Origin: a virus
IMG/VR virus record: IMGVR_UViG_3300031660_000039
Location: 1-27,698 of that record
Strand: one strand, 5' to 3'
DNA length: 27,698 nt
The notes beneath the pieces were generated by a model. The model saw only the letters and a list, made by a program, of their open reading frames with translations. It made no database searches and was not told where the DNA came from. A program made the position numbers and the translations under genes. Positions 3,071 through 17,941 of the stretch are shown here, piece by piece (the stretch's first letter is position 1; each line of letters begins with the position of its first letter).

Positions 3071-3092
3071 CATTTAGTGCTTGCAAAGGTAT

Positions 3093-3120
3093 GATGTTAA
3101 CATTAGGGTAACTTATATAG
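3093..3120 (+). promoter_or_regulatory. Promoter with CtrA-like box, copy 1
   Basis: GATGTTAACATTAGGGTAAC at 3093-3112 is followed at once by TTATATAG, a good -10 element. TTAA-N7-GTAA within it (3097-3111) is one base off the alphaproteobacterial CtrA consensus TTAA-N7-TTAA. No good -35 hexamer lies 16-18 bases upstream of the -10, which suits an activator-dependent promoter. The same element recurs on the minus strand at 17884-17912 upstream of an unrelated gene. The downstream leader (GACACA, CAAAGG, ACGGATATG) is conserved between the two copies as well, so the whole unit seems to be under selection or recently copied. Confidence 0.65.
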
Positions 3121-3147
3121 AGAGACACAAACAAAGGGAACACGGAT

Positions 3148-3393
3148 ATGACAATGTTTAGCACATCCACAATCGCAGCCGAAGACATCACAATCCTTTG
3201 CGTATTGGACGCAGACGGCGAAACAGCGGTTGTTGAGTTTAAGACAAACGGTGCTTTCTTTATCGCTGACACATCCGACCTTGTAGAGTTTGGTGAGGTG
3301 TTTCAGATCACCAACACAAAGCGCATGAAGGCTGGCGCAACACCAGAAGAAAAAATCAACGTGGCACGCAAAGATTACTTTGGCACCGCATAA
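3148..3393 (+). CDS. Small accessory protein in cassette 1 (unknown function)
   Basis: This 81-aa protein starts with ATG after AAAGGGAACACGGAT. I do not recognise its family. The sequence alternates strand-like stretches (DITILCVLD, ETAVVEFKTNGAFFIAD), suggesting a small beta-rich fold, and ends with a basic helix (EEKINVARKDYFGTA). There is no signal peptide or membrane segment. It is flanked by its own CtrA-box promoter and its own TTCG-loop terminator, so it is an autonomous unit inserted between virion genes and the accessory operon. Its codon third positions look less GC-rich than the replication genes. Such self-contained phage genes (morons) often alter the host or block other phages. 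That role is inference from layout only. Confidence 0.7.
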   Translation: MTMFSTSTIAAEDITILCVLDADGETAVVEFKTNGAFFIADTSDLVEFGEVFQITNTKRMKAGATPEEKINVARKDYFGTA

Positions 3394-3401
3394 CGCAACA
3401 C

Positions 3402-3419
3402 GGGGAGCTTCGGCTCCCC
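3402..3419 (+). terminator. TTCG-tetraloop hairpin terminator, copy 1
   Basis: GGGGAGCTTCGGCTCCCC forms a perfect 7-bp stem with a TTCG loop, 9 bases after the stop of the 3148 gene. There is no following T-run. The identical 18 bases stand behind the gene of the second cassette on the minus strand (17437-17454). Confidence 0.65.
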
Positions 3420-3433
3420 ACAGGCGCCTGCGT

Positions 3434-3469
3434 AAAGGGGTAACGACTTCCCGAAGTTATTACCCCTTT
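3434..3469 (+). other. Long near-perfect inverted repeat
   Basis: AAAGGGGTAACGACTTC (3434-3450) pairs with GAAGTTATTACCCCTTT (3453-3469), with two adjacent imperfect positions. The hairpin is A-rich on the left and T-rich on the right, like a bidirectional terminator. It sits just before the leader of the 3504 gene, so it could be a second terminator or an RNA leader structure. A short palindrome, CAGGCGCCTG (3421-3430), separates it from the TTCG hairpin. Confidence 0.5.
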
Positions 3470-3503
3470 AAGAAGTGCCTAGAAATCAAGTTGGAGAAAT
3501 AAA

Positions 3504-4034
3504 ATGATTAAAGAAATTGAAGTAACTTTTGTGGCGGATCATTACGCGTTTGCTATTGTGCAGGACGACTACTCTCAGGCATACGTCCCAGCCTCAGTGA
3601 TGAACACCTTGAAAAAAATCCGTGTGGGTAGCCGATACAAAGCTGGTCTCGTCGAAAATAAAAACAATGACCGCAGGCACGCGACACCGTGGTTTGTGAC
3701 CTACATTCCCGAAGAAAAAGCGGACGAGGTCAACGCGTTTGAACCTCTTAAATATTTGTTTGACGAAGCTGAGGAAGTCGAAATTCGGCCGAGGAGGTAT
3801 AATAAAACAGTTTCGGAAATCGTCAGGGACGCCGTCCCCTTAATGGAGGGAAAACCTTTTATCGTTGCAGAGCTGGCCAATATTTCTGGGGTAAGTAACA
3901 GCGAGGTCAGCACAGTCCTAAATAATATGTTTACTCTGGGCCAGATGTCATGCGCTAAAATATACAAGTCAGGCGGGCAAGCTAGATCCACGCAGACCGT
4001 GTGGTGTGACGATGTAAGCGAGCTGTTAAAATGA
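3504..4034 (+). CDS. Two-domain protein with C-terminal winged helix
   Basis: The 176-aa protein starts at an ATG preceded by TTGGAGAAATAAA. Residues about 1-70 are strand-rich (IEVTFVADHYAFAIVQ, RYKAGLVENKN), suggesting a small beta-barrel that could be OB-like. Residues about 98-165 look like a winged helix: helix (TVSEIVRDAVPLM), helix-turn-helix (FIVAELANISGVSNSEVSTV), then a wing. The last helix of the HTH precedes LNNMFTLGQM, the usual dimer or wing lead-in. DNA or RNA binding is likely. It heads an operon of ATGA-coupled genes and may act on early phage or host expression. The C-terminal fold resembles that of the 4624 gene product in layout. No family name can be given. Confidence 0.65.
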   Translation: MIKEIEVTFVADHYAFAIVQDDYSQAYVPASVMNTLKKIRVGSRYKAGLVENKNNDRRHATPWFVTYIPEEKADEVNAFEPLKYLFDEAEEVEIRPRRYNKTVSEIVRDAVPLMEGKPFIVAELANISGVSNSEVSTVLNNMFTLGQMSCAKIYKSGGQARSTQTVWCDDVSELLK

Positions 4035-4174
4035 AAATAACCAAGCAAGATTACGTCATTCTCGCGACGACGCTGGCGCTGTGCGCCTTGCTGGTCGCGT
4101 GCACGCTTCCAGAAGCCTCTGAGAGCCACACAGACCGCCCTCAGGCGCGTCCAACACACTGGGAGGCACTCTGA
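4031..4174 (+). CDS. Small putative lipoprotein
   Basis: ATGA overlap with the preceding stop gives a 47-aa ORF. The N-terminus MKITKQDYVILATTLALCALLVAC is a lipoprotein-type signal: basic start, hydrophobic core, and LVAC as a lipobox with Cys24. Only 23 residues would remain after cleavage (CTLPEASESHTDRPQARPTHW plus a few), polar and with three prolines. The residue after Cys is Thr, so no inner-membrane retention signal is seen and outer-membrane sorting is possible. Rz1-type outer spanins are short Pro-containing lipoproteins, but this gene is far from the holin/endolysin cassette. A superinfection-exclusion lipoprotein is an equal candidate. The next gene overlaps by ATGA. Confidence 0.65.
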   Translation: MKITKQDYVILATTLALCALLVACTLPEASESHTDRPQARPTHWEAL

Positions 4175-4473
4175 TGCCAAAACACACTAGGGCGTCTATT
4201 TTGGATACCGCCAAGGAGTATGTGACAAAGGATCGTGCGGCGACCCACGGTTCAATGGAAGACAACTTTTCCACCATTGCCGCTTACTGGAATATTCATC
4301 TTGGGGGCGATTTTGTTGACGCCGTCGACGTTGGCCTGATGATGGTCATGGTGAAATTATCAAGAGCAAAAATGAACAAAACGCACTTAGATAATTTTGT
4401 GGATTTGGCAGGATACAGCGCGTGCGCTGGGGAATTAGCAATGAAGGGAGACGACGATGACGACGCGAATTGA
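4174..4473 (+). CDS. DUF6378-like phage protein
   Basis: This 99-aa protein overlaps the upstream stop (ATGA), with GGGAGG in front of the start. The sequence matches what I recall of the DUF6378 family: TKDRAATHGSMEDNFSTIAAYW, then VDVGLMMVMVKLSRAKMN and HLDNFVDLAGYSACAGELA. The HG..E..F and DN..DLAGY motifs are the usual conserved points. The family is common in phages of many hosts and has no firm function. The helical pattern with conserved His/Glu/Asp is reminiscent of all-alpha nucleotide pyrophosphohydrolases, which is inference. It ends in an Asp-rich tail overlapping the next start. Family assignment is from memory. Confidence 0.75.
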   Translation: MPKHTRASILDTAKEYVTKDRAATHGSMEDNFSTIAAYWNIHLGGDFVDAVDVGLMMVMVKLSRAKMNKTHLDNFVDLAGYSACAGELAMKGDDDDDAN

Positions 4474-4627
4474 ATGCCCCGAGTGTGACGGCGAGGGCAC
4501 CGTCGAGCACGACCGGTTTCTGCCGGCCAGCCACGCAAATCCGTTCGGTGATTACGAAAGTTATAACATCGAGTGCGCCAACTGTGCGGGGTACGGAACT
4601 ATTCTGGCAATGGAGGACGACGAATGA
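4457..4627 (+). CDS. Small DnaJ-type zinc-finger protein
   Basis: This 56-aa ORF starts inside the end of the 4174 gene and has GGGAG about 9 bases upstream. It holds two CxxCxGxG-type knuckles, CPECDGEG (residues 7-14) and CANCAGYG (40-47), as in the cysteine-rich domain of DnaJ. Four cysteines in two pairs would bind one zinc. The spacing between the pairs is shorter than two full DnaJ zinc modules, so it is a single mini-finger. Phages often carry such peptides next to DUF6378-like genes; a role as protein- or nucleic-acid-binding adaptor is inference. Its stop overlaps the next start by ATGA, so the two are translationally coupled. Confidence 0.75.
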   Translation: MTTRIECPECDGEGTVEHDRFLPASHANPFGDYESYNIECANCAGYGTILAMEDDE

Positions 4628-5424
4628 CCCCGGTGGCAGCATATAACCGCAAGCATGTCAAGATCTTGGCCAAGGAGGGCCTGTCGCAAAAGGAAATCGC
4701 CGACAAGCTGAAAATTGCAACGTCAACAGTCCACCGGATTAAGCATGAGCTGGGCCTGACATTGGGGAGGAAGAGGAATGAATACGGACCAAGACACGAA
4801 ATCTACCGAGAGGCTCGAAAAGATTTGCAAGAGGCTCGACAGGGTCTGCACAATAATCCTGACGGAGCCATCGACGCAGAGGAGGCCAAATTTGCAACAG
4901 AGATTACAGGAGCTGAGCTCGCTGCTCGATTTAATGAAATCCGCAATAGTCGATCTCCAGAAGCGCGACTAAAAGCAAATTTGCAATTTGCCACGACAAG
5001 GCACGAAAGAAACGAGATCATTTATGGTCACGTCTTGATGGAGTTTGAGAAGCTACAGCACAAACTAGGTAAACGCGGCCCGCTGCCGCCCAAGGAGCGC
5101 AAAGAGACGTACACGTCTGAAGTCTCGAGCCCTAAACCAAGCCTAAGCGCGCGCGTGTTAGCCGCAAAACGAAAGGAGTACGGGGCGAAGCAGGGCCTCA
5201 AGCTGCTGAGGCTGATGCCGTCGCACGACGGATATACGGCGGCGGAATTGGCGCTGCTGATCGACGAGAGCGTGCAGCGCGTGTCAAACTACCTCGACCG
5301 GCTGTTTAACGAGGGATCGCTGTATCGGGTGCGTATGCTGGTCACAATTAAAGACAAGACTAAGCGGCAGTGGCGGTGGGTCTACAGCAAGTCTCCAATC
5401 GAAACAAATTACAAGTGGGATTGA
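4624..5424 (+). CDS. DNA-binding protein with N-terminal HTH and C-terminal winged helix
   Basis: I start at the ATG overlapping the previous stop, preceded by GGAGG, giving 266 residues. Residues 8-45 form a helix-turn-helix (EGLSQKEIADKLKIATSTV, then HRIKHELGL) of the resolvase/sigma-like type. The middle, about 50-150, is charged and helical. Residues about 195-255 form a winged helix (GYTAAELALLIDESVQRVSN, then LDRLFNEGSLYRV and a basic wing KDKTKRQWRW). Two DNA-binding domains suggest a transcription or replication regulator. The frame is open throughout, but a second ORF with a good ribosome site is embedded at 4778-4972. The gene ends the accessory operon before a strong hairpin. Confidence 0.65.
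   Translation: MTPVAAYNRKHVKILAKEGLSQKEIADKLKIATSTVHRIKHELGLTLGRKRNEYGPRHEIYREARKDLQEARQGLHNNPDGAIDAEEAKFATEITGAELAARFNEIRNSRSPEARLKANLQFATTRHERNEIIYGHVLMEFEKLQHKLGKRGPLPPKERKETYTSEVSSPKPSLSARVLAAKRKEYGAKQGLKLLRLMPSHDGYTAAELALLIDESVQRVSNYLDRLFNEGSLYRVRMLVTIKDKTKRQWRWVYSKSPIETNYKWD
4778..4972 (+). CDS. Possible overprinted coiled-coil protein
   Basis: A 64-aa ORF lies in the +1 frame inside the 4624 gene. Its ATG is preceded by GGGGAGGAAGAGGA, a strong ribosome site. The product is amphipathic and helical (TERLEKICKRLDRVCTIIL, then LQQRLQELSSLLDLMKSAIV). Its third codon positions are visibly more G/C-rich than those of the enclosing frame over the same stretch, and G/C-rich third positions are the habit of confident genes such as TerL. 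Either this is a true overlapping gene or the bias is chance. Confidence 0.35.
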   Translation: MNTDQDTKSTERLEKICKRLDRVCTIILTEPSTQRRPNLQQRLQELSSLLDLMKSAIVDLQKRD

Positions 5425-5466
5425 TCGTTAAAAGATACCGGGAGATCATTTAGGTGCATTTTAAAG

Positions 5467-5496
5467 AGCCAAGTAATGCTCCGGTGTTACTTGGCT
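5467..5496. terminator. Bidirectional terminator-like hairpin
   Basis: AGCCAAGTAA (5467-5476) and TTACTTGGCT (5487-5496) form a perfect 10-bp stem with a 10-base loop. It sits between the convergent ends of the 4624 gene (+) and the lysis operon (-). There is no long T-run on either side. Confidence 0.55.
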
Positions 5497-5501
5497 ACTG
5501 A

Positions 5502-5924
5502 TCAATCGAACGACGATAAAACTTTTTCCATCGTCTTATCGCTAAACCCTTCAAAACGAATATGTGTGGATGACGCCCGGATGATTGGGTCGTCTCCACG
5601 GCACCAAAATATCTTCTCGAACTCATTCTCCAGATCTATGGAGACAAAGGCGTAGATATCCGATCTATTACGTCCATAAGCCATTTTCGTATAAAACTGA
5701 TAACAGTGGAAGCGCCGATATGTGGCCGTCTTGACCTGCAACGTCAGCAGTTTCTGTGTATACGTCTGTATATACGCGTCGTGCAGCGCAGCCTGCGCGA
5801 GCGTTGCAGTGTGGCCCGCAAGACTGAGGCGGGCCATGGCCATGTATTCTCCGGCCCGCCCCGCGCCGTTACTGGCCTTCTGGTCTTGCCTATTGGGCAA
5901 CCGCCAGCCACTTGTGCGCTTCAA
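5502..5924 (-). CDS. PD-(D/E)XK endonuclease-like protein
   Basis: This gene of up to 140 aa closes the leftward lysis operon and overlaps the endolysin end by 35 bases. The frame opens at a TTG (5924). The ATG at 5843 has a better GGAG site but would lose the GRAGEYMAMARLSLAGH segment. In the PDDEXK_5-type family I recall, an early Glu (GE), a middle Asp (here HDAYI) and an LQVKT strand (D...QxK) make the nuclease core; all three are visible. Aromatic residues after the core (YRRFHCYQFYTK) and IYAFVSIDLENEFEKIFW match the later strands. DNA cleavage or degradation is inferred. Its place after an endolysin is unusual. The start is uncertain and the family call is from motif order only. Confidence 0.55.
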   Translation of the reverse strand: MKRTSGWRLPNRQDQKASNGAGRAGEYMAMARLSLAGHTATLAQAALHDAYIQTYTQKLLTLQVKTATYRRFHCYQFYTKMAYGRNRSDIYAFVSIDLENEFEKIFWCRGDDPIIRASSTHIRFEGFSDKTMEKVLSSFD

Positions 5925-6522
5925 GCGTCTTCTCGGCCCTATGTGCCAGCCCGTGATATCCGCCGTTGACCCTCTTGCTGATCTTCTTGATCATGGGATC
6001 GGACACGCCTGCGTCCGCCATCTCGAACAATCCGTTTTGCTCGAAAAACCAAATCGCCGTATCCATGGCGTACTCGTTGGCGACTAGGTCTGGGTCTGTC
6101 ATCACGTCCGGCAGCCCCATGTCCGACGCGAATTTGCGATACGAAAATTTGCCGGTGAGCTGTAAAAATCCGCGCCCAGCAAATAGGCTGCCGTCGCCGC
6201 TCGCCTCGTCTCCATTACCCATGCGGTTGGAATAGACATTGTTGGCCAGCTTGGCCGGGTTCTTGGAGTAGGGCTTGGCGCTCTCGACCGTCGGGAAGCG
6301 AGACGGCCACACGGCCATAATCCGCTCGGGCGTGCTGTAGTAGAGCCCCTCCGTCGTTCTGGTGAAGCCCGCACTCTCGTGGGCACATTGGCCGAGCAAG
6401 TGGGCGCCGCGCTCCGGTGACAGATCGTAATATTTAGCGATCGCTCGAGCCGTGTTCGGGCCATAGGACCCGTCGGGCGATACGTTAATCTTGGATTGCA
6501 GTAATTTCATTGCGTCGCTCAT
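5890..6522 (-). CDS. Endolysin, GH19 chitinase-like muramidase
   Basis: The 210-aa protein hydrolyses peptidoglycan at the end of infection. Residues about 5-35 resemble a short peptidoglycan-binding repeat (LLQSKINVSPDGSYGPNTAR). The catalytic domain follows: LLGQCAHESAGF with Glu49, then EGLYYSTPERIMAVWPSRFP with Glu58, then FAGRGFLQLTGKFSYRKFA and the C-terminal VNGGYHGLAHR. This order of HES, two glutamates, GRG.xQLTG and NGG is characteristic of glycoside hydrolase family 19 phage lysins. There is no signal peptide, so release needs the holin. It starts within an ATGA overlap with the holin stop. Usual length for this group. Confidence 0.93.
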   Translation of the reverse strand: MSDAMKLLQSKINVSPDGSYGPNTARAIAKYYDLSPERGAHLLGQCAHESAGFTRTTEGLYYSTPERIMAVWPSRFPTVESAKPYSKNPAKLANNVYSNRMGNGDEASGDGSLFAGRGFLQLTGKFSYRKFASDMGLPDVMTDPDLVANEYAMDTAIWFFEQNGLFEMADAGVSDPMIKKISKRVNGGYHGLAHRAEKTLEAHKWLAVAQ

Positions 6523-6890
6523 ACTTTTTTCACTTTCTCAAAGCTGCGCATCCCGGCCAGACCCAACATGCCAGTCAGCACCGGCATCATAACCGACATC
6601 TCGGCCTGCGGAATTGCAAGACCAAATCCCGCCGCAATGGGCGAGATTAAAAAGTTCACGGCCAGACCCAGCACGCACACATAGCCACACAGTGGCCGCC
6701 ACGACGCCTGAAACCAGTTTCCTTGGGCCTCGACCTTGTTGACCTCTATCTGCGCGAGTAGGGCGGCCTGCGCGTGCTGGTCCGCCATCGTGCTAAGCTC
6801 GTGGCTTAACTGAGCCGCTTTGTCTTTATCTTGCACAAATTTTCCGACGAGATCAGTCGCCGGTCCGATTAAAGCGCTTAATATGTTCAT
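6519..6890 (-). CDS. Holin, 3TM type (GTA holin family)
   Basis: This 123-aa protein begins MNILSALIGPATDLVGKFV, followed by a charged amphipathic helix (about 20-55) and then WFQASWRPLCGYVCVLGLAV, the hallmark RP-x-x-GY region before the transmembrane segments (about 65-85 and 95-112). This matches PF11351-type holins found in alphaproteobacterial phages and gene-transfer agents. It would permeabilise the inner membrane to release the endolysin. Its stop overlaps the endolysin start, and its start overlaps the stop of the EF-hand protein, so all three are coupled. Confidence 0.88.
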   Translation of the reverse strand: MNILSALIGPATDLVGKFVQDKDKAAQLSHELSTMADQHAQAALLAQIEVNKVEAQGNWFQASWRPLCGYVCVLGLAVNFLISPIAAGFGLAIPQAEMSVMMPVLTGMLGLAGMRSFEKVKKV

Positions 6891-7198
6891 TTTTTCGTCT
6901 CCAGTGAAGCAAATCCAAAGAATGATCCGACAATACCCGCAACCGATACAAAGTACACACCCCCTATGGATGTGAGCGAGGAGGTGGCCTCACTGAGGCC
7001 GGCAAAAGACGTGGCGACGATTGCCGCAGGAAAAGACAAGAGGCCGCTCAAAGCAAACCAAACCATTTTGCGCTGCTGATCTCTCTTCGCGTCATCGTCC
7101 AAAATCCTCCTTCGTCTGTCGTCGTACTCGAGGGCGTCCCACTCGGACTTCTCGATTGTCCCGTTGCCGTTTCCGTCGGCCTTTTCAAATTCTGTCAT
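6887..7198 (-). CDS. EF-hand membrane protein in lysis cassette
   Basis: The 103-aa protein has one EF-hand loop near the N-terminus: DGNGNGTIEKSE (D1, N3, N5, G6, I8, E12 of the loop), which fits calcium coordination. A basic segment (DDRRRRILDDDAKRDQQRK) precedes two hydrophobic stretches (about 46-66 and 78-97). The start has GAGGAG upstream. It overlaps the holin start by ATGA. Topology suggests a membrane protein with a cytosolic calcium-binding head, perhaps a second holin or pinholin, or a holin regulator. Seen: loop and TM segments. Inferred: any lysis role. Short EF-hand plus TM proteins are known to me beside endolysins in some marine phages. Confidence 0.8.
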   Translation of the reverse strand: MTEFEKADGNGNGTIEKSEWDALEYDDRRRRILDDDAKRDQQRKMVWFALSGLLSFPAAIVATSFAGLSEATSSLTSIGGVYFVSVAGIVGSFFGFASLETKK

Positions 7199-7267
7199 CT
7201 TTTAAGCTCCTCGCATACTCGATAGCGTGCTGACGGTGGTGTGTTATTATGACTATATTATCTCCGT

Positions 7268-7284
7268 CCAATACAACATATTGG
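7268..7284. other. Small inverted repeat in lysis operon gap
   Basis: CCAATACAACATATTGG is a perfect 6-bp stem with a 5-base loop in the 92-base gap between the 7291 gene and the EF-hand gene. It is the only sizeable non-coding gap inside the operon. It may be an RNA processing or attenuation site. Nothing else is seen there except the GAGGAG ribosome site of the next gene. Confidence 0.3.
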
Positions 7285-7290
7285 CCTAAC

Positions 7291-7455
7291 CTATTCCGGT
7301 ACAACCTCAAAACATTCCACCATTATTGTCCTTGCCGTCACCAACACCATCGCGTCGTCCCGAGCCATAGCGCACTCTCCAAGAGTAGAGTGCTGAGACA
7401 ACTGGTAATACTTCAAATCGTTGTTGTAAAACTGCATCCAAATTAAAAAAAACAT
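7291..7455 (-). CDS. Tiny membrane-anchored Cys protein in lysis operon
   Basis: A 54-aa ORF begins at the ATG formed by a TAATG overlap with the upstream stop; an in-frame ATG at 7461 is also possible, but AGGGG is better spaced for 7455. The start MFFLIWMQFYNN is a short hydrophobic helix. The remainder has two cysteines (GEC and VEC) about 20 residues apart and ends EVVPE, a layout of the type Fxx..C....A.....C..V that I recall in small periplasmic phage proteins. A role with the lysis proteins, perhaps spanin-like, is inferred from position only. Confidence 0.6.
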   Translation of the reverse strand: MFFLIWMQFYNNDLKYYQLSQHSTLGECAMARDDAMVLVTARTIMVECFEVVPE

Positions 7456-7928
7456 TACCATTTCCCCTGATATTTGCCGAGATAAAACAGCGCAGTGCCG
7501 ACGCCAGCCGCAGCGATCATAAACACAACGGTCCCAATGATAAAGTTTATTGTATTGTCTAGCATTTCCTGTTTTTTGTAGGCTTCAGCCTTCCTGATTT
7601 TGCGCATCTCCCCCTCGATGGCGAGGACTTCCTCCCAAGCACTTGGCCCATAGGTCCATGATATATGGTCTTTTATTTCCTTTCTCATGGCCTGCATTTT
7701 CTTTTTCTGGGCGAAGATTTCGATCGCGTTCGCAGAATTGTCGGACATCATCTTATAAAAAGGAGGGTTCTTGGTTTTATCCTCTGCGTACTGAAAGTCT
7801 GAGAACGCAGAGCCCCACTTTGCGAGCGTGCCGCTCATTTCTTGAATGTCTTTTCCGGCGCTAATACCCTGCTTGAGGATATTAAAAGCGCTTGTGGCGA
7901 GCCCAACGGCCATGATGGGATCTATCAT
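7455..7928 (-). CDS. Conserved phage membrane protein, C-terminal TM
   Basis: This 157-aa protein starts at an ATG overlapping the upstream TGA. Residues 1-45 contain MIDPIMAVGLATSAFNILKQ and GISAGKDIQEMSGTLAKW, a helical region. The middle (about 50-125) is charged and probably coiled coil (AQKKKMQAMRKEIKDHISW, YGPSAWEEVLAIEGEMRKI). Residues about 127-150 are a strong transmembrane segment (NFIIGTVVFMIAAAGVGTAL), followed by a short basic tail. The YGP.AWEE pattern is one I recall from hypothetical proteins of marine podoviruses, often near lysis or packaging genes. Function is not established; a membrane-anchored structural or lysis-timing role is possible. Confidence 0.75.
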   Translation of the reverse strand: MIDPIMAVGLATSAFNILKQGISAGKDIQEMSGTLAKWGSAFSDFQYAEDKTKNPPFYKMMSDNSANAIEIFAQKKKMQAMRKEIKDHISWTYGPSAWEEVLAIEGEMRKIRKAEAYKKQEMLDNTINFIIGTVVFMIAAAGVGTALFYLGKYQGKW

Positions 7929-8098
7929 GCAAAAACAATCCTCGCTGGACAGTTGTAGTTTGGAGACACCCGGTACACTTTATCGTAAAAGCTCCCGTTT
8001 TTGCCACCCTCGCAATCATAATAGCAATATTTCATCAATTGGTTTGTACCGTCAGACCACGCGTGCCCCCACGACAAAAGAACCAGCGCGCAAATCAC
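7925..8098 (-). CDS. Small secreted cysteine protein
   Basis: A 57-aa ORF starts at GTG within a GTGA overlap with the stop of the upstream gene; an in-frame TAG two codons before rules out a longer form. It ends in an ATGA overlap with the next gene. The N-terminus (initiator, then ICALVLLSWGHAWS) is a signal peptide, with cleavage likely after HAWS. The mature 43 residues carry Cys25, Cys29 and Cys50 (YCYYDCEGG; NYNCPARIVFA), allowing a disulfide. Overlaps at both ends and the signal peptide make it a real gene. A periplasmic role in the lysis pathway is inferred. It has no lipobox, so it is not a classical outer spanin. Confidence 0.65.
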   Translation of the reverse strand: MICALVLLSWGHAWSDGTNQLMKYCYYDCEGGKNGSFYDKVYRVSPNYNCPARIVFA

Positions 8099-8328
8099 TT
8101 TCTAATACCGTTTTCTAATATGCGATCGATCTTGGCGTCTAGCCCATCAAGGCGGTTCATTACGCGGTCCATTTGCGCGAGGCTGTCCGACTTGGTGATG
8201 TATTCTTCGCGTGTCTTGTTGATTAATATCTGCAATCGAGTTATCTCACCGGTCCAAGATTTTACCCAGAAGCCGATCGCGGTGACAATAATAGACAGCA
8301 GGGCGCTCCACATAACATCCGGTTCCAT
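8095..8328 (-). CDS. TM plus coiled-coil protein, first gene of lysis operon
   Basis: I chose the ATG at 8328, preceded by AGAGGAATGATA, giving 77 residues. Residues 6-24 form one transmembrane helix (MWSALLSIIVTAIGFWVKSW). The rest is a charged helical segment (ITRLQILINKTREEYITK, then DRVMNRLDGLDAKIDRILE) with heptad spacing. This N-terminal anchor with a coiled coil is the layout of inner-membrane spanins and XhlA-like proteins, although it is shorter than most spanins. Its stop overlaps the GTG of the next gene. It leads the operon, transcribed away from the early region. Confidence 0.75.
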   Translation of the reverse strand: MEPDVMWSALLSIIVTAIGFWVKSWTGEITRLQILINKTREEYITKSDSLAQMDRVMNRLDGLDAKIDRILENGIRK

Positions 8329-8446
8329 TATCATTCCTCTATTAATGTCGCATTTTACCACACCATAAACAAAATTAAAACATTTGTGCAGGGGCTTGTG
8401 CCTACCCACACACGCTGTTAACACTGCGTTAGAACAGGAGGGCATC
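8329..8446. promoter_or_regulatory. Divergent intergenic control region (lysis / early)
   Basis: This 118-base gap separates the leftward lysis operon from the rightward early genes, so promoters for both must lie here or just inside the genes. It contains AT-rich sequence and TTAA-N7-TTAG (8418-8432), one base off the CtrA consensus. The right edge has AGGAGGGCATC, a strong ribosome site. The RHH protein encoded just downstream is a natural candidate regulator of this gap. I could not assign a convincing -35/-10 pair. Confidence 0.45.
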
Positions 8447-8614
8447 ATGTCACGAGAATTGAAGCAAATCGGGCCACGGATACGCGAAGACGTCGCCGTG
8501 ACGCTAAAAGAACACAGCCGAAACACGCGTATGAGCGTGTCATTGCTGGTCGAGATGGCCGTCATCGCAATGCTGGAAGAGGCGGGGCATGACATTGATC
8601 ACGATTGGAATTGA
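8447..8614 (+). CDS. Ribbon-helix-helix (Arc-like) regulator
   Basis: I start at the ATG after AGGAGGGCATC, giving 55 residues. The sequence RIREDVAVTLKEHSRNTRMS followed by VSLLVEMAVIAMLEE has the strand, helix, turn, helix pattern of Arc/MetJ-type repressors, which bind DNA as dimers through the N-terminal strand. It is the first gene of the early operon and faces the divergent control region, so autoregulation or control of the lysis promoter is likely but inferred. Its end overlaps the RuvC-like start by 26 bases. Length is typical for phage Arc-like proteins. Confidence 0.75.
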   Translation: MSRELKQIGPRIREDVAVTLKEHSRNTRMSVSLLVEMAVIAMLEEAGHDIDHDWN

Positions 8615-9053
8615 TCCCGGCTACCGCACCGGCGGCGTGGCGCTAATCGGCGAAGACTGGGCGGAGGTCCACGACATGCCAATTTATTCGGAGGGCGGCG
8701 TGGACGTGGCGGCGCTGATGGACATCATCAACAGCGCCGGTCCAGTTGGCCACATATTTATCGAGAAACAGCAGGCCATGCCGAAGCAGGGCGTCGTCTC
8801 AGTATTCAAGTTGGGCTTCGGCTACGCGCAGGCGTTGACCACCGTCGCGCTGTCTGGGCACCCGTACACCGAGGTGCGCCCCGCGCTGTGGAAGAAGTCA
8901 ATGAACTTGCCGAAGGACAAGGACAGCGCTAGGCGATTGGCGCAGCAATGGTTCCCGCAACTAAGTGAAAAGATGCGGAGAAAGAAGGACGAACACCGTG
9001 CGGAGGCGCTATTGATCGCCGCCTACGGAAGCTACGGGAAGGGTAAGATATGA
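8589..9053 (+). CDS. RuvC-like Holliday junction resolvase
   Basis: This 154-aa protein has the RNase H-fold resolvase motifs in order: TIGIDPGYRTGG with catalytic Asp9, FIEKQQAMP with Glu59, and KKDEHRAEALLIA with Asp134, Glu135 and His136. It would cut branched DNA made during phage recombination and before packaging. The start lies inside the RHH gene, preceded by GAGGCGGGG. The stop overlaps the next start (ATGA). Length and spacing fit the compact phage RuvC group. Confidence 0.9.
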   Translation: MTLITIGIDPGYRTGGVALIGEDWAEVHDMPIYSEGGVDVAALMDIINSAGPVGHIFIEKQQAMPKQGVVSVFKLGFGYAQALTTVALSGHPYTEVRPALWKKSMNLPKDKDSARRLAQQWFPQLSEKMRRKKDEHRAEALLIAAYGSYGKGKI

Positions 9054-9340
9054 GTGACATTCCACAAGCGCGACAAATACTTCAGTCGGCGATTACAATG
9101 GGCGACATCCGCGACATGCGCGTGGGCATCGAAACTGCGCTAAAATACATGACGCGCGAGCCGTTTACTCGCAAGTCGCCAGTAAGGTCTGAGCGTATTA
9201 CCAAGGAGATGGTAAATAGCGTTTTCCGGTGCGCACAGCAACACCCAAGCATGCCTATGCAGCAGATTGCAGAGCAATTTGGCGTAAACGTGGGGCGCGT
9301 GTCTGAAATTTTGCAGGGGGCACATAATGATAAACTTTGA
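9050..9340 (+). CDS. Helix-turn-helix protein
   Basis: The 96-aa protein is coupled to RuvC by ATGA. Residues about 1-45 are helical without a clear motif. Residues 49-90 form a helix-turn-helix: ITKEMVNSVFRCAQQHP, then MQQIAEQFGVNVGRVSEILQG, as in small phage DNA-binding proteins that recognise repeats. It lies between resolvase and exonuclease genes, so it may be a replication or transcription accessory factor. Its end overlaps the exonuclease start by 14 bases. Confidence 0.65.
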   Translation: MSDIPQARQILQSAITMGDIRDMRVGIETALKYMTREPFTRKSPVRSERITKEMVNSVFRCAQQHPSMPMQQIAEQFGVNVGRVSEILQGAHNDKL

Positions 9341-10121: not shown

Positions 10122-10144
10122 GCAATCAACGTCAGGAGACACAC

Positions 10145-10714: not shown

Positions 10715-10728
10715 ACACAAAACAAGAT

Positions 10729-10750
10729 GCCGCCCGCTACGGTGGGCGGC
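10729..10750 (+). other. GC-rich hairpin before primase gene
   Basis: GCCGCCC (10729-10735) pairs with GGGCGGC (10744-10750) around an 8-base loop. It lies in the 60-base gap upstream of the primase ribosome site. Without a T-run it is more likely an attenuator or mRNA stabiliser than a terminator. Confidence 0.5.
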
Positions 10751-10774
10751 GCAACTAACAAAGGGGTGGGACCA

Positions 10775-12973: not shown

Positions 12974-13617
12974 TAAAGAAATGCGAATATAAGACGTGCT
13001 GCAATTTCTTTACGCTCGGTCGGAAGACTAAATTTTGCAGTGCTCGTTGCAGCCTAAACGACGGGAAAGCTGCGTGGAAGCAGCGTAACCCCAAAAAAGT
13101 TAAAAAGTCAGAGCGCGCGCGCTTGAATAAGAAGTACAAAGACAGCGTAGAATTTAGAGAGAAATGCATCGAGAGGTCGAGTATAACGTATTACAACTTG
13201 ACACAGGAACAACGCCGGCAGCGCAGCCAAAATTGCCGTGACAGAGGCGGCGTGGCTTACGCGGAATATATGCGCGAATACGCTCGAGAGCGAGCAGAGA
13301 AAAACCCACATTTCCGCGCAGCCGGAGCCTTGAGGTCCAGAGTTCGCGGCGCGATTAAGTCAAGCGGCGGGAGTAAGGCACACAAGACCATTCGGCTCGT
13401 GGGGTGCACTATAGAGAGCCTGTGCCAGCACTTAGAGGCGCAGTTCGCCGAGGGCATGTCGTGGGACAACCACGGAGACTGGCACATAGACCACATAATT
13501 CCGTGCGCGGCGTTCGACCTGACAGACGAGAGCCAGCAATTCAAGTGTTTCAATTACACGAATTTGCAGCCACTGTGGGCCAGTGACAATATGTCAAAGG
13601 GGGCGCGCATATTATGA
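12970..13617 (+). CDS. HNH endonuclease with N-terminal zinc finger
   Basis: I use the ATG overlapping the primase stop (215 aa); a frame open further upstream is a shadow of the primase. Residues 1-30 form a zinc knuckle (Cys5, Cys10/11, Cys23, Cys27; MIKKCEYKTCCNFF, KFCSARC). The middle is basic and helical (KKVKKSERARLNKKYKD). The HNH core is WHIDHIIPCAAFD (His172, Asp174, His175), FNYTNLQPLW and ASDNMSKG. Such free-standing HNH genes behave as homing endonucleases. The coupled overlap on both sides suggests stable integration into the operon rather than a recent insertion. Confidence 0.88.
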   Translation: MIKKCEYKTCCNFFTLGRKTKFCSARCSLNDGKAAWKQRNPKKVKKSERARLNKKYKDSVEFREKCIERSSITYYNLTQEQRRQRSQNCRDRGGVAYAEYMREYARERAEKNPHFRAAGALRSRVRGAIKSSGGSKAHKTIRLVGCTIESLCQHLEAQFAEGMSWDNHGDWHIDHIIPCAAFDLTDESQQFKCFNYTNLQPLWASDNMSKGARIL

Positions 13618-13865
13618 GGGACCACGAGATCGGCGAGTGGACGGAGGACGAGCATCCAGAACAAGTCGTGATGACTGTCCTGTGGTCTGACGACTTCGAC
13701 GCGTGCATGATCGAGTTCGAGCCGGACTTTCTGCATCCGCACACCGTGGAGGAGCGCAAGAGGCGGGCTCACATCCTCGTCAATGCGATGTGGACTATTG
13801 AGCACGCGCTGCTGAAAATGGATGACCAGATACTGAGGAGTGGCGATGATGACGTGTTACATTAA
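13614..13865 (+). CDS. Small acidic hypothetical protein
   Basis: This 83-aa ORF overlaps the HNH stop by ATGA. It is acidic (EIGEWTEDEHPEQV, DDFDACMIEFEPDF) with a helical middle (VEERKRRAHILVNAMWTIEH) and an Asp-rich end. No family is recognised. It is the last gene before the repeat-rich non-coding block, so it ends the early operon. Confidence 0.6.
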   Translation: MRDHEIGEWTEDEHPEQVVMTVLWSDDFDACMIEFEPDFLHPHTVEERKRRAHILVNAMWTIEHALLKMDDQILRSGDDDVLH

Positions 13866-14043
13866 TGTTACCTCACCTTCCTCACGTTGGGTGAGGTGCC
13901 GTGAGGTACGTGAGGCTATTACGCTTATTCCTCCCTCCTCCTCACCACACGCTATTGTATAGCGTGGTGAGGAGGAGGTGAGGAAACGTGCGAGAGCTGG
14001 GTGAGGTTAACAATGCAACGAAACGACGAGGGGGAGATGATAC
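13866..14043. repeat. Iteron cluster and long hairpin, candidate replication origin
   Basis: No convincing gene fits in this 178-base block. It holds nine copies of one hexamer: GTGAGG at 13891, 13901, 13910, 13967, 13978 and 14001, and its complement CCTCAC at 13871, 13880 and 13940. In the centre CCTCCTCCTCACCAC (13934-13948) plus GCTAT pairs with ATAGC plus GTGGTGAGGAGGAGG (13959-13978), leaving a 2-base bulge and a TGT loop: about 20 base pairs. A second stem, CCTCAC-GTTGG-GTGAGG, lies at 13880-13896. Repeats plus a cruciform beside the primase-helicase operon are typical of an origin. A regulatory RNA or operator array is the alternative. The 3' edge carries GGGGGAG, the ribosome site of the next gene. 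Confidence 0.55.
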
Positions 14044-14658
14044 ATGGCTAAGGTAGCTAAGCAGAAGAGCCGGCAAGCGAAGCAGGGGATCGCAAGGGCG
14101 ATGCGCGATAGAGGCACGTTTGAGACTGGCACACCGACGACGCCAATCTCGAGGCAGTGCGACGGACAGATGATGCCGCTCGACAAGAAGGCGCGGGACA
14201 TGATCAAGAAGTGGGGCGACAGTCTGCCCGAGCTCGTGTCCCCGGATTTAGCTGGCCGCTTCGAGGCTGCATACGACGCGCTGCGGGTGAAGGTGGAAGC
14301 GGACGACGTCGTGGCTGTGCACGCGATTGTAGCGCAGTTAATGCGGGCGTGGGACGTGCTGGAGGCCGAGGCTCTCGCCAATGGGCATCAGCCGGTCGGT
14401 CCGCACGCCTACTGCATCGAGATTGCCAGCGGACACATCGTCTGCATCGCGCTTCACGATACAGTGGGAATACGTCGTGCCCATCCCGAGTGGACGGTGT
14501 ATGATATGGTCGACGCCGCCGTCGTGTTGGCGAATAACTTTAGCAGCGACTTTGTCGAGAAGACGCTGCAATCGTTTCCCGAGGCCAAGGTGACGCGCGT
14601 CATCGGCACGGCGAGCGACACGTTTAACGTCGACTTGGGCGACGAGATACCGTTTTAA
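14044..14658 (+). CDS. Unknown protein with SSB-like C-terminal tip
   Basis: The 204-aa protein starts after GGGGGAGATGATAC. The N-terminus is basic (MAKVAKQKSRQAKQGIARAM). The middle is helical (LAGRFEAAYDALRVKV, VVAVHAIVAQLMRAWDVLE), then strand-rich (AYCIEIASGHIVCIALHD) and helical again (VYDMVDAAVVLANN). It ends VDLGDEIPF, very like the acidic DDDIPF tip by which bacterial SSB recruits partner proteins. It lacks an SSB-type OB domain that I can recognise. It could use the tip to dock on host SSB partners, or be an unrelated packaging accessory placed before TerS. Function is open. Confidence 0.65.
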   Translation: MAKVAKQKSRQAKQGIARAMRDRGTFETGTPTTPISRQCDGQMMPLDKKARDMIKKWGDSLPELVSPDLAGRFEAAYDALRVKVEADDVVAVHAIVAQLMRAWDVLEAEALANGHQPVGPHAYCIEIASGHIVCIALHDTVGIRRAHPEWTVYDMVDAAVVLANNFSSDFVEKTLQSFPEAKVTRVIGTASDTFNVDLGDEIPF

Positions 14659-14670
14659 GGAGCGAGAGGC

Positions 14671-15135
14671 ATGGGAACACTGGGCAAGGTTAAGCTGGCC
14701 GCGCTGGAAGCAGCCGGCGAGGACGAGATCTTCGGGCTGATTGCGGACGGGAAAAACGCGTCCGACGTGATCAAACATTACAACGTAGGCTGGAACATAT
14801 TCCACAAGTGGATCGCGGCCGGTGAGGGCAGGGCGCAGCGATACGACGAGGCCAAAGAGATGGCGGCTCACTACTACGCGTCGCAGGCGCAGAAGATTGC
14901 GGACGAGATCCACCAAATCGAGGCAAACGTGAACAGCGCGAGGCTGAGCGTTGATGTGTACAAGTGGAAGGCGTCTAAAGCGTCGCCCGAGTATGACGTG
15001 CGGCAGCGTGACGTGGCCATCAACATCAGCGTAAATGACCTGCACGCGCAGGCTGCGATGCTACTTAACAGCGTGGGTGGCGACATCATCGAGGGCGAGC
15101 TGGTCGAGGACGGCGAGGAAGCGGATGGCGATTGA
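14671..15135 (+). CDS. terS: Terminase small subunit
   Basis: The 154-aa protein has GGAGCGAGAGGC upstream. Residues about 18-55 look like a DNA-binding HTH (EIFGLIADGKNASDVIKHYN, VGWNIFHKWIAAGEGRAQ). A central helical segment (ASQAQKIADEIHQIEANVNS) would build the oligomer. VYKWKASKASPEYDVRQRDV matches the WkasrasP.ydgrq pattern of many small terminase subunits. The C-terminus is acidic. It would recognise the packaging site and load TerL. TerL starts about 315 bases later; direct adjacency is more usual. Confidence 0.8.
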   Translation: MGTLGKVKLAALEAAGEDEIFGLIADGKNASDVIKHYNVGWNIFHKWIAAGEGRAQRYDEAKEMAAHYYASQAQKIADEIHQIEANVNSARLSVDVYKWKASKASPEYDVRQRDVAINISVNDLHAQAAMLLNSVGGDIIEGELVEDGEEADGD

Positions 15136-15251
15136 CTGCGAAATCACGCATCGAGGCGCTGAAGCGCACGCGTGCGCGCGTGCCAGATCGATGCGGCGCG
15201 GTCAAGCAGGCATGGGCGAACGTCGCATTGATACCAAAAGATTTAACATAA
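15132..15251 (+). CDS. Possible 39-aa peptide coupled to TerS
   Basis: A TTG start overlaps the terS stop (TTGA) and opens a 39-codon frame reading LTAKSRIEALKRTRARV, then AVKQAWANVALIPKDLT, basic and helical. The junction and amino-acid makeup look coding, but the start is weak and no homolog is recalled. It may instead be part of the packaging-site non-coding DNA, because the palindrome at 15164-15177 lies inside it. Confidence 0.3.
   Translation: MTAKSRIEALKRTRARVPDRCGAVKQAWANVALIPKDLT
15164..15177. repeat. 14-bp perfect palindrome
   Basis: GCGCACGCGTGCGC is a perfect self-complementary sequence in the TerS-TerL gap. It may be a TerS or packaging site, or just part of the small reading frame. 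Confidence 0.45.
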
Positions 15252-15450
15252 TATCTATTATGCGTTCAATTGCGGGGGCGGTTCGGCGTCGATCCGGGCG
15301 CGTTTTGACGCCCTTCCCTGCCCTTCTCGCCTCAGAAATACGCGTTTTGACCCCCCCCTTGATCAGCGCGACCGGGTGCAAATGCTCATGACCTAATCAC
15401 GCACCCACGCCGAAAAAATTTCACACCACCACGCACAGGAGTGTTAACAA
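15252..15450. other. Non-coding TerS-TerL gap, candidate packaging site
   Basis: I see no gene in these 199 bases. At the left edge, CATAATA (15247-15253) and TATTATG (15256-15262) form a perfect inverted repeat with a 2-base spacer. CGCGTTTTGAC occurs twice as a direct repeat (15299-15309 and 15341-15351), the second followed by a run of eight C. A weak promoter, TTGATA (15228-15233) then TAATAT (15249-15254), has only 15 bases of spacing. The right edge has GGAGTG before TerL. Repeats between the terminase genes would suit pac or cos, but this is inference. Confidence 0.4.
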
Positions 15451-16872
15451 ATGAACGTCCCCAAGCAGCCTGAGAACCCGTTCCTGAAACTGATGCGGCG
15501 CTACCGCGACGACCCGGTCCGCTTCGCGCAGGAGGTGATCGGCATCGAGCCGGACGAGTGGCAGGTTGAGCTGTTGGACGCGGTCGCCGCCCCCGCGATT
15601 AGGCGGATCTCCGTTCGGTCTGGCCACGGCGTCGGCAAGTCGACTGGAGTTGCCATGGCGGCTATTTGGCATGTGCTGATGCGCTACCCGAGCAAGACGG
15701 TGGTGACGGCCCCCACCAGTGCGCAGTTGTTTGACGCGTGCTTCGCTGAGATGAAGTCGGTGGCCAAGAGGCTCAAGCCTCCGTTTAATACTTTGCTGGA
15801 GGTCAAGTCGGATCGCATTGAGTTGAAGAGCGCGCCCGAGAGCACGTTTATATCGTGTCGGACGTCTCGAGCGGAGCAGCCGGAGGCGTTGGCCGGCGTA
15901 CACTCCGAGCATGTGTTGCTGTTGGCGGACGAGGCGTCAGGCGTCCCGGAGGCCGTGTTTGAGGCTGCCTCGGGCTCGATGTCTGGCCACAGCGCCACGA
16001 CGGTGCTGACGGGGAACCCGACGCGTAATACTGGCTTCTTTTACGAGACGCACACGAGGCTCCGCGATGATTGGCACACGATGCACGTTTCGTGCGTCAC
16101 GAGCCCCCGCGTGTCTGAGGATTTCATCGAGGACATGAAGAAGCGCTACGGCGAGGACAGCCCGGCGTATCATGTGCGCGTGCTTGGAAATTTCCCGCCG
16201 TCTGAGGAGGATACGGTCATCCCGGTGTCGTTGATTGATCACGCATTTAATAACACGGTGAAGGTCCACGAGGACACGACTGCGGTGTGGGGCTTGGACG
16301 TGGCGCGACAGGGCGGCGACAGCAGCGTATTGTGCAAGCGGCAGGGGCCGCTGATACATCCTCTGACTGTGTGGCGAAACTTGGATCTGATGCAGTTGTC
16401 TGGCGCCGTTAAGGCGGAATATGACGCCATGCCGCCGTCTAGGCGCCCGGCGGAGATCATAATTGACAGCAATGGCTTTGGGGCTGGCGTGTTGGACCGC
16501 CTGCGCGAGCTGGGCTTGCCGGCGCGCGGCTTGAACGTGTCGGAGCGCGCGGTTGCGAAGCAAACGTATTTGAATTTGCGCGCGGAGCTGTGGTTTAAGT
16601 GCAAGGCGTGGTTGGAGGGGATGGACGTGTCTCTGCCGAAGGACGACGCGCTGTATGCGGAGCTGGCGGGGCCGCGTTATATGTTTACGTCGTCGGGCAA
16701 GATACAGGTGGAGAGCAAGGAGAGTATGAAGAAGCGCGGCATCCGCTCCCCGGACCGCGCTGACGCGGTGTGCTTGGCTCTGGCTAATGACCACACGACG
16801 ATGGCGTTTGGCGTGGCGGCCGCCGGATCGTGGGCCAAGCCGATCCGGCGGAATATTCGCGGGGTGGTTTAA
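15451..16872 (+). CDS. terL: Terminase large subunit
   Basis: The 473-aa packaging motor starts after CAGGAGTG. The ATPase half has an adenine-binding Trp/Gln region (EPDEWQVELLD), Walker A SGHGVGKST (57-65), a TAPTSAQLFD segment (87-96), Walker B LLLADE (156-161) and the coupling motif VLTGNP. The nuclease half has WGLDVARQGGDSS (Asp283), IIIDSNGFGAG (Asp339) and RADAVCLALAN (Asp438), the three acids of an RNase H-type terminase nuclease. Length is normal. It hydrolyses ATP to drive DNA into the prohead and cuts genome units. Its TAA overlaps the stop of the convergent minus-strand gene. Confidence 0.95.
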   Translation: MNVPKQPENPFLKLMRRYRDDPVRFAQEVIGIEPDEWQVELLDAVAAPAIRRISVRSGHGVGKSTGVAMAAIWHVLMRYPSKTVVTAPTSAQLFDACFAEMKSVAKRLKPPFNTLLEVKSDRIELKSAPESTFISCRTSRAEQPEALAGVHSEHVLLLADEASGVPEAVFEAASGSMSGHSATTVLTGNPTRNTGFFYETHTRLRDDWHTMHVSCVTSPRVSEDFIEDMKKRYGEDSPAYHVRVLGNFPPSEEDTVIPVSLIDHAFNNTVKVHEDTTAVWGLDVARQGGDSSVLCKRQGPLIHPLTVWRNLDLMQLSGAVKAEYDAMPPSRRPAEIIIDSNGFGAGVLDRLRELGLPARGLNVSERAVAKQTYLNLRAELWFKCKAWLEGMDVSLPKDDALYAELAGPRYMFTSSGKIQVESKESMKKRGIRSPDRADAVCLALANDHTTMAFGVAAAGSWAKPIRRNIRGVV

Positions 16873-17417
16873 TTTTGGAACGGCGTCCTGTCTGGAGACA
16901 CTGTGTCGATGACGTCGGACATGCCTATGCGGATCTCGACGCTTTTCACGAGCTTCTGGCCATTTTCGACCCACCGCTCGAGCGTCAGGTCTTTGAGGTT
17001 CCGGCAGATGATGCGTGATCCTACTGCTTTTGGTATGGGGCTGGTTAGCGGGTCGTGGTGTAGGTAGACAAACTTCCAGCCGGGTTTATAGCCGCTGTTT
17101 GCTTGGCAGTGCACCACGCGCTGCATTATCAAGTTCGGGTTCCCGATTTCGTTAAGTATGAGGTCGCGCGTTATGCGCTTGGTTTTTTTGGGCTTTCGGG
17201 AGTTTGATAGCAGAAGCAGAAGCCGACGCTCGACTGTCTCGTTTATGAGCGGCTCGATCATTGACAGTGGGATGGACCCCTCGGGCACGGCGGGCTCGTC
17301 TCGGAGTTTTTTAATCTGGATCGATATCCGCGCGAGCTCGTAGGCCATCTCCATCTGCTCGCTGATTAGCTCGTTGCGTTTCCTGTCTTTCCATGTTTCA
17401 GGTGTGTCGTGGTTCAT
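16869..17417 (-). CDS. Unknown helical protein behind cassette 2
   Basis: I chose the ATG at 17417 with GGGAG 7 bases upstream, giving 182 residues. A longer frame would run through the terminator hairpin. The N-terminal half is helical (ISEQMEMAYELARISIQIKK, then IEPLINETVERRLLLLL), and the second half is mixed, with a basic start (SRKPKKTKRITRDL) and strand-like WKFVYLHHD. No family or catalytic motif is recognised. It lies between TerL and the second autonomous cassette on the opposite strand, with the TTCG hairpin between it and the upstream gene. Read-through of that hairpin may supply its transcript. Confidence 0.6.
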   Translation of the reverse strand: MNHDTPETWKDRKRNELISEQMEMAYELARISIQIKKLRDEPAVPEGSIPLSMIEPLINETVERRLLLLLSNSRKPKKTKRITRDLILNEIGNPNLIMQRVVHCQANSGYKPGWKFVYLHHDPLTSPIPKAVGSRIICRNLKDLTLERWVENGQKLVKSVEIRIGMSDVIDTVSPDRTPFQN

Positions 17418-17436
17418 GTTAATTCTCCCGGTTGGT

Positions 17437-17454
17437 GGGGAGCCGAAGCTCCCC
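17437..17454 (-). terminator. TTCG-tetraloop hairpin terminator, copy 2
   Basis: On the minus strand this is GGGGAGCTTCGGCTCCCC, identical in all 18 bases to copy 1 at 3402-3419. It lies 7 bases after the stop of the 17462 gene and 19 bases before the start of the 16869 gene. Confidence 0.65.
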
Positions 17455-17461
17455 TGATTGA

Positions 17462-17863
17462 TTATGCTTGTTTTGCTGCCTTCAAGATGCCTGACTTGCA
17501 GGCTTCGCGGTTCCAGTCGGCGGTTCCGATTACAGTCCACCACCACTCTTTCTCAACTTCTGGGTGCCCAACGTGCCAAGCAACATAAAATTCGCCTGTG
17601 CAAAAGCAGATCGCGTCAACGCCAAAATCTTCTGGTTTGATTGGCGTTTCCTTTTTTTCAATTATGTTTGCGGCTTCTAAATGCCACTCCCATTTGATGC
17701 CTGCTTCCCCGCCTGCGATTGGCGCAACATTGCGAGGATTAGCCAGCTCTACCTTGAACGAGCTGCCGTTTTTCTCAACGTAACAACCGCCATGCCAGCC
17801 AGCAACTTTGATGTCGCCAAGCAGATCGCCTTTTTTGCCGTCTGTGAAATCAAAAACTTTCAT
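17462..17863 (-). CDS. Accessory protein in cassette 2 (unknown function)
   Basis: The 133-aa protein starts after AAAGGAATACGGAT, the same leader end as the 3148 gene. It is rich in Trp, Gly and Cys (VAGWHGGCYVEKNGSSF, IKWEWHLEAANIIEKK, DAICFCTGEFYVAWHV, EWWWTVIGTADWN), suggesting a compact beta-sandwich. No signal peptide or TM segment is seen. It shows no visible sequence similarity to the 81-aa protein of cassette 1, although promoter, leader and terminator are shared. As with cassette 1, a host-directed or anti-defence role is plausible but unproven. Confidence 0.7.
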   Translation of the reverse strand: MKVFDFTDGKKGDLLGDIKVAGWHGGCYVEKNGSSFKVELANPRNVAPIAGGEAGIKWEWHLEAANIIEKKETPIKPEDFGVDAICFCTGEFYVAWHVGHPEVEKEWWWTVIGTADWNREACKSGILKAAKQA

Positions 17864-17883
17864 ATCCGTATTCCTTTGTGTGT

Positions 17884-17912
17884 GTCTATACAGTTAACCT
17901 AATGTTAACATC
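17884..17912 (-). promoter_or_regulatory. Promoter with CtrA-like box, copy 2
   Basis: On the minus strand GATGTTAACATTAGGTTAAC (17893-17912) is followed by TGTATAG. TTAA-CATTAGG-TTAA is an exact match to the CtrA consensus TTAA-N7-TTAA, with TTAAC at the end. It differs from copy 1 in one base of 20. The -10 element begins a few bases downstream, so bound CtrA would lie across the spacer and could activate or repress. The conserved leader runs to the start codon at 17863. Confidence 0.68.
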
Positions 17913-17941
17913 TACAGACTTCAAGCCCTAAACCGCAAAAA

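Follow-up and report, generated by a model that had tools for sequence, protein, structure and literature searches.

What is held constant, and what is exchanged, when unrelated genes of one phage genome stand in almost the same regulatory surroundings? The question is raised by IMG/VR virus record IMGVR_UViG_3300031660_000039, a stretch of 27,698 nucleotides (referred to here, at its whole length, as the window), in which an 81-aa gene on the plus strand and a 133-aa gene on the minus strand had been taken, in a sequence-only reading, for two copies of a plug-in cassette of promoter, leader and terminator with a swappable gene inside. The answer that we consider probable is that the window contains at least two permanent slots for exchangeable accessory genes, and that a phage repressor which also regulates its own gene controls them. 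The format of a slot consists of a sigma70-like promoter, an operator, a leader ending ACGGA(C/T)ATG, the exchangeable gene (its "cargo") and, usually, a stable hairpin past the stop codon.

Permanent slots and their exchangeable cargo

The two slots of the window, designated A and B, and the genes next to them are laid out as follows.

2813..3013, minus strand: anchor gene of slot A (MLDDNTKEL...), conserved in 72 loci
3081..3109, plus strand: predicted slot A promoter, with -35 TTGCAA (3081-3086), a 17-nt spacer and -10 TAGGGT (3104-3109)
3096..3112, plus strand: predicted slot A operator, GTTAACATTAGGGTAAC
3113..3147, plus strand: slot A leader, with ribosome-binding site AAAGGGA and with ACGGAT directly before the ATG
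3148..3393, plus strand: slot A cargo gene, 81 aa, of a family found at six other slot A loci
3402..3419, plus strand: UUCG hairpin after the stop codon of the slot A cargo
15451..16872, plus strand: terminase large subunit gene, the anchor of slot B
16869..17417, minus strand: gene downstream of cassette B (MNHDTPETWKD...), starting ~20 nt past the hairpin
17437..17454, minus strand: UUCG hairpin after the stop codon of the slot B cargo
17462..17863, minus strand: slot B cargo gene, 133 aa, of the MKVFDFT family, which sits in slot A of relatives
17893..17909, minus strand: predicted slot B operator, GTTAACATTAGGTTAAC
17896..17924, minus strand: predicted slot B promoter, with -35 TTGAAG (17924-17919) and -10 TAGGTT (17901-17896)

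The shared elements that had drawn attention to the two genes are all present. A 21-base core, GATGTTAACATTAGG(G/T)TAACT, occurs at 3093-3113 (+) and 17892-17912 (-) with one mismatch in 21, and TTAACATTAGGKTAAC is represented in the window by two exact copies, the self-match of its near-palindrome and one site with 3 mismatches, where shuffled sequence averages 0.15 matches and no shuffle reaches 4. Both leaders end ACGGATATG and carry a ribosome-binding site (AAAGGG or AAAGGA), and the 18-base TTCG hairpin GGGGAGCTTCGGCTCCCC is identical after the two stop codons (chance expectation 0.02). The two cargo proteins are indeed unrelated, falling into separate BLAST families; they have no match in Pfam or PHROG and no relative among 50,697 phage records, and a single-sequence model of the 133-aa protein (pLDDT 35) was useless as a guide to its fold.

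When IMG/VR was scanned for the core, 109 stretches were obtained, including 34 distinct promoter sequences having the whole architecture. Many of the 109 were unrelated chance 16-mers, which were removed by demanding the TTG context; with that filter a weight-matrix scan gave no hits in the controls, and chance was rejected as the source of the motif. The follow-up fixed the genomic position instead, with slot A marked by the MLDDNTKEL gene, a relative of which is carried by 72 loci, 60 of them analysable. Across these 60 loci, all on phage contigs, slot A contains 18 unrelated gene families, so that the format does recur in relatives with other genes inside, as had been supposed. For the 1639 pairs of slot A loci with different cargo, mean identity is 88% in the anchor-side flank, 85% in the promoter and 83% in the leader, while that of the open reading frames (ORFs) is at background (median 0.35). 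In the best pairs the flanks are 97-100% identical, and flanks, promoter and leader together 94-100%, against 12-49% for the ORFs; loci L240 and L247, for example, agree in 100% of the left flank, 100% of the promoter, 97% of the leader, 95% of the hairpin region and 97% of the right flank, but in only 16% of the ORF. Identity ends at the start codon and returns past the stop codon, and the alignments thus show an exchange of cargo that extends from the start codon to the stop codon, within a slot that itself remains in place.

Slot B, which adjoins the terminase gene (17.4-17.9 kb of the window), holds other families in the wider group, with the same pattern of swaps. Three families (MTTSAIAYG, MKVFDFT and MSKLYDDK) are found in both slots, always under the promoter type of the slot in which they reside, which shows that the promoter is a fixture of the slot and that it is the gene that moves. 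The idea of a travelling cassette is accordingly retained in part: the gene is exchangeable, but its promoter is a property of the genomic site. Concerted evolution of the two slots inside one genome was rejected, since slots A and B of one genome (identity 0.68-0.80) are no more alike than slots compared between genomes (0.74). A natural empty slot, in which the leader (AAACAAA) joins the hairpin GGGAGCTCCGGCTCCCC directly and the downstream gene follows, is present in L042 (4283-4400). As is expected of morons, cargo at a given site thus occurs in some relatives and is missing in others, and has a promoter of its own. The junction of the empty slot shows GGGA microhomology, and in L300 and L302 the downstream gene lies directly behind ACGGACATG.

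The 193 proteins encoded behind the promoter form 59 BLAST families; because some of these represent the regulator described below, small conserved genes or chance sites, we estimate the cargo families at about 50. Slot B alone supplied cargo that could be assigned to an enzyme class, namely a C5 cytosine DNA methylase (PF00145) in L366 and L368 and an HNH-like protein in L369. Two operator-linked families with conserved Cys motifs, NRFCGPAVIS and GTTGDCAVRA (slot B of L328, L335, L338 and L330; G001 at 137 and 36297), are each weakly similar to phrog_3754, and could be cysteine-protease-like. A conserved, acidic, operator-linked family of ~50 residues (MDKNNTDGELDLTDPLRAGIYSLAFM and relatives) is encoded outside slots A and B (G006:131, G025:21687, G017:24111 and L371). 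Five cargo proteins compared with the defence-system proteins of PADLOC gave no match.

The hairpin, which had been read as the terminator of the cassette, does not have that character. A strong hairpin is found no more than 30 nt from the stop codon in 55 of 89 distinct 3' regions; the loop is UNCG in 37 of the 55, none is followed by a T-rich tail, and 50 of them precede a start codon with a ribosome-binding site (median distance 20 nt). A canonical terminator was rejected on the grounds that the T tract is lacking in all 55 and that the next gene is close behind, and it is for want of a T tract that the hairpin of the window was not called by a terminator scan. It is an intercistronic stem-loop, which perhaps protects the 3' end of the mRNA, acts as a weak terminator or is simply the right-hand flank for recombination. 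Directly after cassette A there is a long and strong inverted repeat (3428-3475; AAAGGGGTAACGACTTC / GAAGTTATTACCCCTTT), which makes a more credible terminator than the UUCG hairpin.

The operator and the putative regulator

The conserved core had been described as a promoter. A sigma70-like promoter (TTGNNN-N17-TAnnnT) is in fact present, and 93 of the 150 distinct cassette promoters have TAnnnT at TTG+23; the conserved core itself, however, is predicted to be a protein-binding site lying over that promoter and common to the gene of a regulator. This operator, GTTAAC-N5-GTTAAC, is 17 bp long and overlaps either the -10 element or the promoter spacer. Pairs of GTTAAC occur at spacing 5 only (26 distinct sites in terminase loci and 9 in capsid loci), and none was found at any other spacing from 0 to 11 in the terminase and capsid loci of this group. 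The N5 between the hexamers varies freely in more distant members. The operator starts 5, 10, 15/16 or 21 nt past the TTG, and the TTG positions peak at these values. In register 15, where the -10 element falls inside N5, positions 3-4 of N5 are TA (ATTAG, ACTAT, CCTAT), whereas in register 10 N5 need not carry TA (ATTTT, AATTT, ACTGT); the promoter and the operator are therefore separate features that have been overlaid. Shifts by half-helical turns without loss of the site would seem to suit a repressor that occupies the promoter more than an activator that contacts the polymerase. We counted 50 operator sites in 21 contigs, where ~1.2 are expected, and most of them precede the regulator gene or accessory genes. 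A promoter for a phage RNA polymerase, brought to mind by the resemblance of the core to the SP6-like TTAGGT...TATAGA, was dropped as an explanation, as no such polymerase was recognised when the ORFs of the related record G003 were inspected by eye; the free variation of N5 where the -10 element falls outside it also counters that reading.

Both copies of the core noted earlier in the window are real, but they are not the only ones: a third copy of the operator stands before a gene that is hidden within a longer frame and had been missed by the ORF list.

8396..8424, plus strand: predicted regulator promoter, with -35 TTGTGC (8396-8401) and -10 TAACAC (8419-8424)
8417..8433, plus strand: predicted regulator operator, GTTAACACTGCGTTAGA, with a degenerate second half; the third copy of the window
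8447..8614, plus strand: gene for a 55-aa ribbon-helix-helix (Arc-like) protein, a putative autorepressor, at the head of a run of genes from resolvase to primase

The 55-aa protein resembles PHROG 3180 (Arc-like repressor; E 0.002). An AlphaFold2 model, computed from an alignment of 18 sequences (the window's own and 17 relatives), has a pLDDT of 88 with helices 14-27 and 31-45 at high confidence, and its matches in the PDB are ribbon-helix-helix proteins, for example the antitoxin CopASO, PutA, Arc and CopG, with TM ~0.7; in the model, the protein has the beta-alpha-alpha ribbon-helix-helix fold of ~45 residues. The gene was found in 18 of the 23 large records of the group. In a separate scan directed at the regulator gene, each of 34 distinct upstream regions contained GTTAAC and the operator (33 within two mismatches and one with three), where shuffled sequences give ~0.05 of 34 within two. 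In the putative DNA-contact strand K6, Q7 and G9 are invariant, though the proteins diverge to 36% identity. RelB provides a precedent for neighbouring ribbon-helix-helix dimers that line up along the same face of the DNA, their half-sites being strictly spaced (PMC2812701).

Proposed repression by the phage and other explanations

These observations suggest the following course of events. The cargo would be exchanged by homologous recombination in the conserved flanks of the slots. On infection, the host RNA polymerase might transcribe the cassettes along with the early operon. Once enough of the ribbon-helix-helix protein has built up, its dimers would bind side by side to the paired GTTAAC sites and silence the promoters. 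In the least certain step, the cargo, probably expressed early, would act on the host at that time in takeover or anti-defence, functions that are plausible by analogy with archaeal viruses.

Several points weigh against the proposed role of the regulator. Its binding and its repressor activity are predictions from sequence. The match to RHH_3 (E 0.005, 17.2 bits) is below the curated Pfam cut-off of 21.6, and the structural matches in the PDB have E-values of 0.3 or more, as is usual for 55 residues. No match to the regulator was found in 5 of the 23 large records, including the 34.8-kb G011, which has the operator. Finally, the operator matches the box recognised by a host protein, the cell-cycle regulator CtrA.

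The last point is the basis of the alternative that survives best, although we judge it unlikely, namely that the operator is a CtrA binding site (TTAA-N7-TTAA), through which the host cell cycle represses or times the accessory and early genes. GTTAAC-N5-GTTAAC contains the exact CtrA consensus and spacing, with one mismatch in the slot A copy of the window; CtrA binds and regulates genes of several alphaproteobacterial phages, in one of them by repression (PMC9437464), and CtrA sites over a -10 element repress (PMC4287350). In addition, several isolates with related capsids infect alphaproteobacteria. The phages under CtrA control share with ours the presence of TTAA-N7-TTAA sites in promoters, but there the sites cluster in one region or in terminal repeats (PMC9437464), whereas here single sites precede two to four genes, including that for the phage regulator, and the flanking G and C are conserved. 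These outer bases of both hexamers are in fact kept better (142-145 of 150 cassette promoters) than the fourth base of the left TTAA (109 of 150), and in the site before the regulator gene itself the right TTAA is often disrupted. Furthermore, the sites track a phage gene, the GTTAAC pair is missing from related phages of Sinorhizobium, Rhizobium and Sulfitobacter, and an alphaproteobacterial host is not established for the phages considered here. CtrA and the phage regulator might both use the site. As a separate observation, Sulfitobacter phage pCB2047-A (L391) has a single TTAA-N7-TTAA (TTAACACCAGCTTAA) at 18996, in the gap just downstream of its annotated repressor gene.

More doubtful still is a plain constitutive early promoter, copied around the genome, in which the palindrome would either just belong to the core promoter or mark a hotspot of recombination, and no regulator would be involved. 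The presence of TTGNNN-N17-TAnnnT, and the fact that conserved flanks could serve solely as recombination arms, agree with this possibility, but against it stands the hexamer pair, which holds its spacing of 5 while its position relative to the promoter shifts by half turns and N5 changes. Hypervariable spots are common in phages, and most of the cargo is short and unannotated, but an ordinary spot of this kind, at which neutral ORFs come and go in no special format, is very improbable here, given that the cargo families consist of conserved proteins that recur across many contigs (two full-length members are 69% identical) and are joined to the slot precisely at start and stop codon, and that the operator is conserved.

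Related systems and the phage group

The system lies near both the cassettes of T4-type phages and the Aca-linked anti-defence genes, and differs from both. Mobile regulatory cassettes made of a promoter and a stem-loop (PeSL) have reportedly been described in T4-type phages (Arbiol 2010; Comeau 2014). There, repeated promoter and stem-loop motifs are reported to border exchangeable small genes (PMC4503421), and here too such elements flank exchangeable small genes at several sites of the genome. The PeSL regulatory cassette itself reportedly moves, whereas in our phages the promoter is tied to one genomic position and only the ORF changes; in addition, our promoter has an operator common to a phage regulator gene, our stem-loop lacks the T tract of a PeSL-type intrinsic terminator and has another gene behind it, and the phages, at ~36 kb, are unrelated to the T4 type.

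In archaeal viruses, a shared early promoter and the small regulator Aca8 mark anti-defence genes. As in our phages, many unrelated small genes share one regulatory sequence with a small regulator gene, which always has it, and the motif works as bait (PMC11065993). The phages differ in having a bacterial-type promoter, a ribbon-helix-helix regulator, fixed slots and codon-exact swaps, and an anti-defence activity of their cargo is conjectural. P22 Arc and other ribbon-helix-helix repressors resemble our modelled regulator in being small beta-alpha-alpha proteins with paired half-sites, and the model matches Arc structures in fold; the half-site here is GTTAAC, however, the sequence similarity is weak and the binding to the operator is predicted. 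Fixed genomic sites with variable accessory content are also known from P2-like phages and P4-like satellites, as hotspots of antiviral systems (PMC9122126), but there the content consists of defence systems in prophages and satellites, whereas here it is usually one small gene, exactly exchanged under a resident promoter.

The operator, the leader and the position of the slot lead to dozens of small uncharacterised phage genes, each traded as a whole, and the slots thereby offer a way of cataloguing new accessory genes. The regulator and its operator are a concrete candidate pair for a single assay, and the cargo is a natural library for takeover and counter-defence screens. Codon-exact replacement under a resident promoter also bears on how phages trade in accessory genes. 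Tentatively, and with somewhat more doubt than belief, we might go further and see here a dedicated format for gene exchange, with resident slots, codon-exact replacement, early co-regulation by one repressor and a shared pool of dozens of mostly uncharacterised anti-defence or takeover genes. If this were true, the format would be the counterpart in bacterial phages of the Aca8 regulon, and bait for new counter-defence genes.

The window belongs to a phage with an SU10-type major capsid protein (PF17236), and also encodes portal, terminase, a RuvC-like resolvase and primase/helicase. The 36.4-kb relative G003 is near complete, as both its ends lie within the primase gene; among its ORFs, which were inspected by eye and not by a gene-by-gene search, no integrase, CI-like repressor or phage RNA polymerase was recognised. 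The closest annotated capsid, at 58% identity, is from an uncultured record; the alphaproteobacterial isolates mentioned above are among the more distant capsid relatives, others of which infect different hosts. A host scan over the genomes of 84,980 species produced just two close matches, both in metagenome bins of unrelated phyla, in which contigs of this phage group (L397 and L398) are placed in Opitutae and Desulfuromonadales assemblies. These bins were taken as contaminants, the placement being probably due to binning contamination, and the two taxa were dropped as hosts. A search of the window against Rfam gave no match. At 26764-27698 the window consists of 63-nt coding repeats in tandem, fibre-like and of low complexity, and the record stops inside them. 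The phage group has been seen in many metagenomes.

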